In this document: positions 1 through 43,238 of the stretch, piece after piece | Layout of the letters: each line of letters starts with the position of its first letter | Position numbering within the stretch: the stretch's first letter is position 1 | NCBI GenBank assembly: GCA_009903935.1 | Contig: WYEG01000036.1 | Location: forward strand, 1 to 45,530 | Length of the DNA: 45,530 nucleotides | Origin: Caldimicrobium sp. | GTDB taxonomy: Bacteria > Desulfobacterota > Thermodesulfobacteria > Thermodesulfobacteriales > Thermodesulfobacteriaceae | Reading direction: 5' to 3' | Program-made: the position numbers and the translations under genes | The notes under the pieces: generated by a model | What the model saw: the letters and a program-made list of their open reading frames with translations, nothing else | Databases searched by the model: none | Told to the model about the DNA's origin: nothing

Positions 1-263
1 AGCACTCCTCTTCCGATGACTATTTCCTTTGGGTCGTAGCCAAAAAGACCAAGATGACCGGGACCACTTCCTGGGGTTATGCCAAGGTCAACAGGAATGT
101 GAAGCCCAGTCGCGCTCTCCTTGGCTAAGGAATCAAGGTTTGGTGTTTTTGCATACTCAAGAGGGGTCTTTCCATCCTTACCGGGAAGGTCTCCTACCCC
201 ATCAAGCACTATAAGAACAATCTTAGCCTCGTTCTTTTTTATCAAATCCTTGAGTATGTCCAT
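1..263 (-). CDS. apgM: 2,3-bisphosphoglycerate-independent phosphoglycerate mutase, archaeal type (5' part only)
   Basis: The first 87 codons of a gene that leaves the window at the left edge. It interconverts 3- and 2-phosphoglycerate in glycolysis and gluconeogenesis. The translation begins [17 protein letters not shown], followed by the metal-binding stretch [17 protein letters not shown] and [15 protein letters not shown]. These match the N-terminus and phosphoserine loop region of the ApgM branch of the alkaline phosphatase superfamily. The ATG at 261-263 is supported because the homologous N-terminal helix starts right there, and GGGGGT lies just upstream. It is the last visible gene of the mrp operon. 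The 3' end of the preceding zinc-ribbon frame overlaps it by 39 bases in another frame. Confidence 0.85.
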
Positions 264-450
264 CGTGAACCCCCAGGGTGCAGTAGTTTTTTAGAAAATC
301 TTGCCACATCTTCTCTTTTGCTTTTTCTATGTCCTCTTCATAGTCTTTGGCGCTGAATTCAGCTCCGCAGGTAAGGCACCTTACCTTGGCGTTAGCTCAA
401 GTTCCGAAAAGCTCTGCCTTTGCCCCGCAGGCTTTGCAAAAAAGCTCCAT
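223..450 (-). CDS. Small zinc-ribbon protein with in-frame UGA (candidate selenoprotein or decayed gene)
   Basis: An ATG at 448-450 follows the mrp stop codon directly and has AGGAGG nine bases upstream, so translation should start here. The frame reads [17 protein letters not shown], meets TGA at 397-399 (codon 18), then continues open for 57 codons to TAA at 223-225. The continuation includes [11 protein letters not shown] and a charged helix ([16 protein letters not shown]). Together the two halves supply the CxxC...CxxC pairs of a zinc ribbon, so the reading frame is biologically sensible across the UGA. A strong hairpin (370-385) lies 11 bases beyond the UGA. Either UGA is decoded as selenocysteine, or the gene carries a nonsense mutation. 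No sel genes are in the window. I do not recognise the family. Confidence 0.5.
370..385 (-). promoter_or_regulatory. Hairpin just downstream of in-frame UGA (SECIS-like candidate)
   Basis: On the minus strand GGTAAG pairs with CTTACC around a GTGC loop; a seventh G-C pair is possible. The loop begins about 18 bases after the UGA. Weaker outer pairings (CGC/GCG and GCU/AGC) could extend the stem back to the UGA itself. Bacterial SECIS elements are stem-loops directly after the UGA with a guanine early in the apical loop. Position and shape fit, but function is inference. Confidence 0.4.
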
Positions 451-1629
451 CTATGCTGTCCTCCTACTCTCAACCTGCTCGATGTATTCTTTAACTAAGT
501 CATCAGGATTTGCCTTTTCTTCGTCGGTTGCTAAGACCCTTAGACCAAGGAGATTAAACCGCTCCGCAAGCTCTGGGGTTGGCTCAAAGAGGACGATGTG
601 GGTTGCCACCTGCTCTTTTAGGAACTCGTTCAAATCCTGGTCATCTGGCTTTCTAACTACATCTTTAACTAAGATTTTCCCCTTTTCTACATCGTAGAGA
701 GCAAAGAGCACCGCTTGGTTTATGTCCTTCTCTATCTTTGTTGGCGTAGAAATGGGGATCGCAATCCGCATGAAGGCTTCCTCAAGGACCTCTCTTCTCA
801 TCTCTTCCGTTGCCGAAACAACATTCCTTATCAAATCTTCAAAAGCTTTAGCGGTAACGGATTCTGGGTAGCTACCAACAATAGGTCTTCCCGCATCGCC
901 GGTATCAACAACCCTCGGGTCAACGGGGATCCTTCCCAAGAACCTCACTCCCATCTCCTCGGCAAGCTTTTGCCCTCCACCCCTCTTAAAGAGGTCGATA
1001 GCTTTTCCGCAGTGGGGACAGATGAACCCGCTCATGTTCTCCACAATGCCAAGGATCCTAAGCTTTACCTTTTGGCAAAACCGGATGGACTTCTTTACAT
1101 CTATCAGCGAAACCTCTTGAGGAGTGGTGACGATCAGGGCATAAGCATCTGGGATGGTTTTAGCTATCGTCAGAGGCTCATCGCCCGTCCCAGGAGGGGC
1201 ATCGATGACAAGGTAGTCAAGCTCTCCCCAGTCTATGTCTCCAATGAACTGTTTTATGGCCGAGATCTTTATCGGTCCTCTCCATATTACTGCCGAATCC
1301 TCGGAAGGAAGAAGGGGCTCGATGGAGAGGAATTTTAGGTTTGGAGAATACTTGATGGCTCCAAGCTTTCCGTCAGGGCGCCTTGTTAGCTTGAGGTCCC
1401 TTGCCCCGAGCATCTTAGGGATGCTTGGACCGTGGAGGTCTACATCAAGAAGACCTACCATAAAGTCCTGCAAAGATAAACCAACGGCTAAGTTTACCGC
1501 AACCGTGCTTTTTCCTACACCACCCTTGCCAGACATCACCATGATTTTGTGCTTAATCTTGGAAAGTTGTTCCTTAACCCGCTTGTCCTGCTGGTCAAGC
1601 AGAAAACCTTTCTCTTTCAAAAGCGCCAT
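451..1629 (-). CDS. mrp: Mrp/NBP35-family Fe-S cluster carrier ATPase fused to a FeMo-cofactor-binding-like domain
   Basis: A 392-residue protein. Residues about 30-275 form a Mrp ParA-like ATPase with the deviant Walker A SGKGGVGKST, LLDVDLHGPSIP, IDAPPGTGDEP and CPHCGKAIDLF, whose CxxC binds a bridging Fe-S cluster in this family. From about residue 288 a second domain begins, MRIAIPISTPTKIEKDI, resembling the dinitrogenase iron-molybdenum cofactor-binding (NifX/NafY) fold. The DUF59 domain found at the N-terminus of many Mrp proteins is absent. The ATG has GGGAGG just upstream. The protein probably scaffolds or delivers Fe-S clusters in the cytosol. It heads an operon with the zinc-ribbon frame and apgM, served by the promoter at 1659-1686. 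Confidence 0.9.
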   Translation of the reverse strand: MALLKEKGFLLDQQDKRVKEQLSKIKHKIMVMSGKGGVGKSTVAVNLAVGLSLQDFMVGLLDVDLHGPSIPKMLGARDLKLTRRPDGKLGAIKYSPNLKFLSIEPLLPSEDSAVIWRGPIKISAIKQFIGDIDWGELDYLVIDAPPGTGDEPLTIAKTIPDAYALIVTTPQEVSLIDVKKSIRFCQKVKLRILGIVENMSGFICPHCGKAIDLFKRGGGQKLAEEMGVRFLGRIPVDPRVVDTGDAGRPIVGSYPESVTAKAFEDLIRNVVSATEEMRREVLEEAFMRIAIPISTPTKIEKDINQAVLFALYDVEKGKILVKDVVRKPDDQDLNEFLKEQVATHIVLFEPTPELAERFNLLGLRVLATDEEKANPDDLVKEYIEQVESRRTA

Positions 1630-8168: not shown

Positions 8169-8242
8169 CGGGGCGTAGCTCAGCCTGGGAGAGCGTCGGC
8201 TTCGGGAGCCGAGTGTCGGAGGTTCAAATCCTCTCGCCCCGA
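8169..8242 (+). tRNA. tRNA-Pro (anticodon CGG)
   Basis: Acceptor arms CGGGGCG/CGCCCCG, D stem GCTC/GAGC, anticodon stem TCGGC/GCCGA with loop TTCGGGA, T arm with TTCAAAT. The C1-G72 pair and A73 discriminator are typical of tRNA-Pro. CCA is not encoded. Confidence 0.95.
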
Positions 8243-8290
8243 TTTGCTTGAAAATCTTTCGTTTAGTTTTAAAATATTCAAATAGCAAGT

Positions 8291-8364
8291 GCGCCCGTAG
8301 CTCAATTGGACAGAGCATTGGACTACGAATCCAAAGGTTGCAGGTTCGAGTCCTGCCGGGCGCG
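8291..8364 (+). tRNA. tRNA-Arg (anticodon ACG)
   Basis: Acceptor arms GCGCCCG/CGGGCGC, anticodon stem TTGGA/TCCAA with loop CTACGAA, T loop TTCGAGT. The A34 would normally be edited to inosine to read CGN codons. CCA is not encoded. The SpoU gene starts 30 bases later. Confidence 0.95.
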
Positions 8365-8394
8365 CATATCTTGACCATTCTCTCTTTCAAATAA

Positions 8395-21221: not shown

Positions 21222-21296
21222 TCCGGGGTCGTCTAACTGGTAGGACATGGGACTTTGGATCCCAGTATCCTGGTTCGAATCCAGGCCCCGGAACCA
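21222..21296 (+). tRNA. tRNA-Gln (anticodon TTG)
   Basis: Acceptor arms TCCGGGG/CCCCGGA, anticodon stem TGGGA/TCCCA with loop CTTTGGA, T loop TTCGAAT. It is the only tRNA in this window with an encoded CCA end (21294-21296). Confidence 0.95.
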
Positions 21297-21314
21297 TTTT
21301 TAATGTTAAAGCTT

Positions 21315-21406
21315 GGAGGAGTGGCCGAGAGGTCGAAGGCGCTCGCCTGCTAAGCGAGTGCACGGGTGAAAAGCCCGTGCCGCGGGTTCGAATCCCGCCT
21401 CCTCCG
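21315..21406 (+). tRNA. tRNA-Ser (anticodon GCT)
   Basis: Acceptor arms GGAGGAG/CTCCTCC, anticodon stem CTCGC/GCGAG with loop CTGCTAA, long variable arm GCACGGG/CCCGTGC diagnostic of a class II tRNA, G discriminator. CCA is not encoded. Confidence 0.95.
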
Positions 21407-21424
21407 TTTGAGATATAGAAGCTT

Positions 21425-21497
21425 GCCGGCGTAGCTCAACTGGCAGAGCGTGGGATTTGTAATCCCAAGGTTGAGGGTTCAAGCCCCTCCGCCGGCT
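21425..21497 (+). tRNA. tRNA-Thr (anticodon TGT)
   Basis: Acceptor arms GCCGGCG/CGCCGGC, anticodon stem TGGGA/TCCCA with loop TTTGTAA, T loop TTCAAGC, discriminator T. CCA is not encoded. rsmE starts 10 bases after it. Confidence 0.95.
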
Positions 21498-21507
21498 CTC
21501 TCCTTTT

Positions 21508-43143: not shown

Positions 43144-43150
43144 ATGAAAT

Positions 43151-43224
43151 GGGCCCGTAGCTCAGCTGGTTAGAGCCGCCGGCTCATAACCGGAAGGTCC
43201 CAGGTTCGAGTCCTGGCGGGCCCA
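43151..43224 (+). tRNA. tRNA with CAT anticodon (Met elongator or Ile2)
   Basis: Acceptor arms GGGCCCG/CGGGCCC, D stem GCTC/GAGC, anticodon stem GCCGG/CCGGA (outer pair mismatched) with loop CTCATAA, T loop TTCGAGT, discriminator A. It is not an initiator, since the 1-72 pair is G-C and the anticodon stem lacks the three G-C pairs of initiators. GGCTCATAACC resembles Ile2 tRNAs with lysidine-modified C34, but elongator Met is possible. CCA is not encoded. Confidence 0.9.
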
Positions 43225-43238
43225 TCAATTCTTTGATA

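Follow-up and report, generated by a model that had tools for sequence, protein, structure and literature searches.

Comparative evidence for an NF041197-family small zinc-ribbon selenoprotein in Caldimicrobium and other Thermodesulfobacteriales

A short gene of Caldimicrobium sp. very probably encodes a small zinc-ribbon selenoprotein of NCBIfam family NF041197, in which it falls within the subfamily marked by the motif GxU. Codon 18 of this gene is UGA, and comparison with related genomes indicates with near certainty that it is decoded as selenocysteine (Sec) through a bacterial SECIS (bSECIS) hairpin located just downstream. The comparison thereby adds one more predicted selenoprotein, which ordinary annotation would end at residue 17, and it shows that NF041197 contains two paralogous subfamilies.

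Gene layout and neighbourhood

The window is the whole stretch of 45,530 nucleotides that was analysed. The selenoprotein open reading frame is located on its minus strand at 450-226 and is followed by a TAA stop at 225-223 (feature 223-450); it is defined by its translation, its NF041197 match and its homologues. Translation with the TGA as U yields a protein of 75 residues, from 17 codons, the TGA as codon 18 (399-397) and 57 more codons. A ribosome-binding site, AGGAGG (460-465, minus strand), was read directly from the sequence 9 nt before the ATG at 450. This arrangement immediately after mrp is the one described in the sequence-only reading, which had left the strand unstated. Two CxxC knuckles, C5 and C8 (427-438, minus strand) and C25 and C28 (367-378, minus strand), are invariant in alignment A2 together with U18, which gives the layout CxxC - Sec/Cys - CxxC.

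The gene directly upstream encodes an Mrp/NBP35-like P-loop ATPase (451-1629, minus strand), and its TAG stop (453-451) abuts the selenoprotein ATG; the two genes likely belong to the same operon. Downstream, a phosphoglycerate-mutase-like gene (3-263, minus strand) runs off the window, and its ATG lies inside the selenoprotein frame (overlap 223-263, minus strand). The motif GGGGGT is found just upstream of this start, and translation of the phosphoglycerate-mutase-like gene might therefore depend on whether ribosomes get past the UGA. The window also holds six plus-strand tRNA genes, at 8169-8365 (Pro, Arg), 21222-21498 (Gln, Ser, Thr) and 43150-43226 (Met).

The same pair of upstream and downstream neighbours, mrp and phosphoglycerate mutase, flanks the gene in 4 loci. 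Neighbour gene names were assigned by eye from the sequences. topA is directly upstream in 15 loci (L011, L014-L021, L023-L028), a nucleoside-phosphorylase-like gene is downstream in 10 loci, often where topA lies upstream, and dnaX is downstream in 6. No function was deduced from these neighbours because they are housekeeping genes that change between lineages.

Conservation of the UGA codon

Homologues were searched with Cys written for U in the query, and the first search gave matches in 32 of 60 related genomes. Among 41 genomes of the order Thermodesulfobacteriales, 36 matches were found in 30 genomes of ten genera, including Thermodesulfobacterium, Thermodesulfatator and Thermosulfurimonas. 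Every one of the 36 carries TGA, always in the same alignment column, and the protein is conserved on both sides of it. In the window-type subfamily across the phylum, TGA is present in nearly all strong matches. Codon 18 is TGC (Cys) in two genomes, both from one genus in the same phylum but outside the order (G075 and G413); a proposal that the window-type subfamily is without Cys forms was rejected on account of these two genomes. The in-frame UGA of the window is thus matched by UGA or Cys in homologues, the pattern that marks a selenoprotein gene. A strict-pattern scan of genome contigs returned only Thermodesulfobacteriales and two short actinobacterial matches, to 21 residues, and the viral contigs searched contained no relative.

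A single in-frame TGA, judged from one genome, would suggest an ordinary zinc-ribbon gene with a nonsense mutation or a sequencing error, and the sequence-only reading had named a nonsense mutation as its main alternative. The same UGA in all 36 order matches, from ten genera, and in most relatives from other families of the phylum excludes this explanation and leaves it a negligible probability.

Selenocysteine machinery of the source genome

The genome from which the window comes has the genes for selenocysteine insertion. selC was found as a tRNA-Sec with anticodon tca (82 bits), selB is present, selA is present and cut by a contig end, and selD is present (L081, G000:C6:58265-59191). The selD gene has an in-frame TGA (ASGUASKL), which makes it a selenoprotein gene itself. 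SelB is found in nearly all relatives, including those without the selenoprotein gene, and its co-occurrence with the gene is therefore uninformative.

Decoding of the UGA as Sec, as first proposed from the window alone, is supported by these sel genes, by UGA throughout the order with Cys in two genomes, and by conservation of the hairpin. Observations that would speak against it, such as a genome lacking selB or selC, or unrelated residues at codon 18, did not turn up. In the proposed mechanism, SelB and tRNA-Sec would decode codon 18 as Sec under the direction of the hairpin at 386-369.

The SECIS hairpin in the order

The putative bSECIS hairpin, AGGUAAG-GUGC-CUUACCU (369-386, minus strand), was assigned by folding, by conservation of its register and by the published bSECIS model. 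It has a 7-bp stem and a GUGC loop and starts 11 bases 3' of the TGA, with outer pairs around it, as the sequence-only reading had described. The apical loop lies 17 nt after the UGA, and the codon of C25, the first Cys of the second knuckle, falls within it. The bare 18-mer folds at -7.3 kcal/mol (z -2.3 vs shuffles), a 34-mer from the UGA at -10.8 kcal/mol, and a 50-mer with the outer pairs at -17 kcal/mol (z -1.5 vs shuffles). Thermodynamics alone is weak evidence, since the 50-mer reaches only z -1.5. The bSECIS model requires a loop of 3-9 nt with G in the first two loop positions, a stem of 4-16 bp, a spacing of 16-37 nt and an MFE <= -7.5 (quoted in PMC13188914). The window has a 4-nt loop starting with GU, 7 bp, a spacing of 17 nt and, for the 34-mer, -10.8 kcal/mol, all within these limits.

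Conservation, rather than folding energy, is the strong evidence for the hairpin. Of the 28 window-type genes in the order, 26 keep one register with 7-10 pairs, in which the apical loop starts at nucleotide 21 (taking the T of the TGA as nucleotide 1). The third positions of the stem Val and Leu codons switch together, GTA occurring with CTT and GTG with CTC. The Arg codon is AGG wherever the stem is kept. The next codon of the stem reads ACC; three rows have GCC there and pair it by G-U. The hairpin is thus kept through synonymous changes in both arms of the stem, a pattern that answers the earlier call for compensatory changes in relatives. Watson-Crick pairs numbered 166, vs 108 +/- 4.7 (maximum 125) in simulations that used the codon usage of each locus; related genomes were treated as independent, so the comparison gives no strict probability. 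By this sequence comparison, the hairpin of the order is maintained by synonymous codon choice beyond codon usage.

Two order members are without the common-register hairpin, and other hairpins are possible in both. L022 (G030) has a downstream-register hairpin, GCCGC-AGGT-GCGGC, and in L010 (G010) a hairpin with a GTGG loop lies about 11 nt further on.

The SECIS register outside the order

A loop at nucleotide 21 was found in 0 of 59 other Sec genes, which comprised window-type genes outside the order and genes of the other subfamily. Of 32 window-type genes outside the order, 27 have a stem of 5 or more pairs whose loop lies 5-7 nt further downstream, within the CxxC codons, and the same downstream register (at least 5 pairs) occurs in 20 of 27 Sec genes of the other subfamily. 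The two Cys codons themselves partly dictate this register, and the Cys forms are therefore the needed control; the downstream hairpin is mostly missing there (present in 3 of 11). Relative to the register common to most other members, the SECIS loop in the window's order is thus shifted upstream by about 6 nt. This change of register inside a conserved protein offers a natural experiment on the needs of SelB, with the same residues and two hairpin positions.

These data also bear on the reading of the UGA as a genuine stop, which would end a 17-residue peptide or act as a regulatory stop, with the downstream conservation due to another overlapping function. Bacterial UGA normally terminates translation, and termination coupling is conceivable because the next gene begins inside the frame. 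Nevertheless, the second CxxC, A21, V23 and the helix residues are conserved as protein 3' of the UGA, the Cys forms read straight through, and Sec forms have a strong hairpin, which most Cys forms lack. A genuine stop is accordingly very improbable.

Predicted structure and proposed role of selenocysteine

The AlphaFold2 model of the 75-residue protein has a mean pLDDT of 80; over residues 1-50, every ten-residue block averages at least 90. It contains strands at 11-15, 22-25 and 31-33 and a helix at 34-56, and Sec is placed in a turn at 16-21. The two CxxC knuckles are joined by a beta hairpin, and the predicted fold supports the zinc ribbon that had been proposed from the window alone. Matches to solved structures were weak and mostly of zinc-ribbon type.

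According to the model, the two knuckles probably bind zinc, with the beta hairpin followed by the helix, while Sec would sit in the turn between strands, distant from the knuckles. This position suggests that Sec is probably no zinc ligand, and an exposed redox centre is the moderately favoured role. The protein, with four Cys and one Sec among its 75 residues, would be suited to a soft metal, and Sec could then be correctly decoded and serve as a ligand in soft-metal binding or trafficking, with no redox role. This seems rather improbable, given that the model places Sec in the turn of the hairpin, far from the knuckles, and that no metal-handling genes recur among the neighbouring genes across loci.

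If Sec is a redox centre, it may have a partner in the tail. A Cys after the helix is present in 50 of 60 type-2 and 23 of 27 type-1 Sec proteins (the GxU and the mostly RTU subfamily, respectively), and its position is not fixed. Its frequency, which is the whole ground for the idea, makes this Cys a tentative candidate for a selenenylsulfide bond with Sec.

Subfamilies of NF041197

The window's protein, with C written for U, matches NF041197 at 40.8 bits against a 40-bit cut-off, and all 29 members of alignment A1 match the model at E <= 0.01. Order members score 27-35 bits in a six-frame search, which places the window's subfamily at the edge of the model. The family is already known as a predicted selenoprotein. 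The "possible new selenoprotein" of the sequence-only reading is consequently not new, as publications already list its family (PMC13188914; PMC12013277). No zinc-ribbon selenoprotein described under another name turned up in a search of papers.

In a tree of 98 short sequences, the family splits into two subfamilies with 100/99 support. Type 1 has mostly RTU and a C-terminal RCDRL; type 2, which includes the window, has GxU and AxARV, and GxU is invariant in the window's subfamily. Both occur together in several genomes. The present sequence analysis thus adds that NF041197 pools two well-separated paralogous subfamilies, often in the same genome. A broader proposal joins three parts: GxU would be a distinct selenoprotein family pooled with RxU; Sec at the hairpin tip and the tail Cys would form a redox switch; and SECIS would have moved by about 6 nt within the conserved coding sequence of one order, so that its position evolves independently of the protein. 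Taken as a whole, this proposal is speculative and less likely than not.

Comparison with known systems

At the level of fold, the nearest known systems are the two-knuckle ribbons of eS27 and of RNA polymerase subunit 9 type, with weak fold similarity and with weak sequence similarity to ribosomal protein eS27 (E 0.0047). In contrast to the window's protein, these are without Sec and have another length and tail; the similarity is that of a common small fold.

OS_HP3 was reportedly named by Zhang and Gladyshev in 2007. NF041197 itself, CxxC_Se_CxxC ("dual CXXC motif small (seleno)protein"), shares with the window's protein its small size, length and CxxC-Sec-CxxC order, but the best matches of the model belong to the other subfamily. 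A 2026 review lists NF041197 twice, as OS_HP3 with the motif RxU and as hypothetical protein DW with GxU (PMC13188914). DW (SMF39960.1) was reported in 2025 from Desulfosarcina by deep-Sep (Xiao and Zhang; PMC12013277). OS_HP3 has the same family and CxxC-U-CxxC layout (PMC13188914), whereas its RxU motif corresponds to type 1, which is split from the window's subfamily at 100/99. DW is likened to the window's protein by two features alone, the family accession and the GxU motif (PMC12013277; PMC13188914). From these motifs, we infer that type 1 corresponds to OS_HP3 and type 2, with the selenoprotein of the window, to DW.
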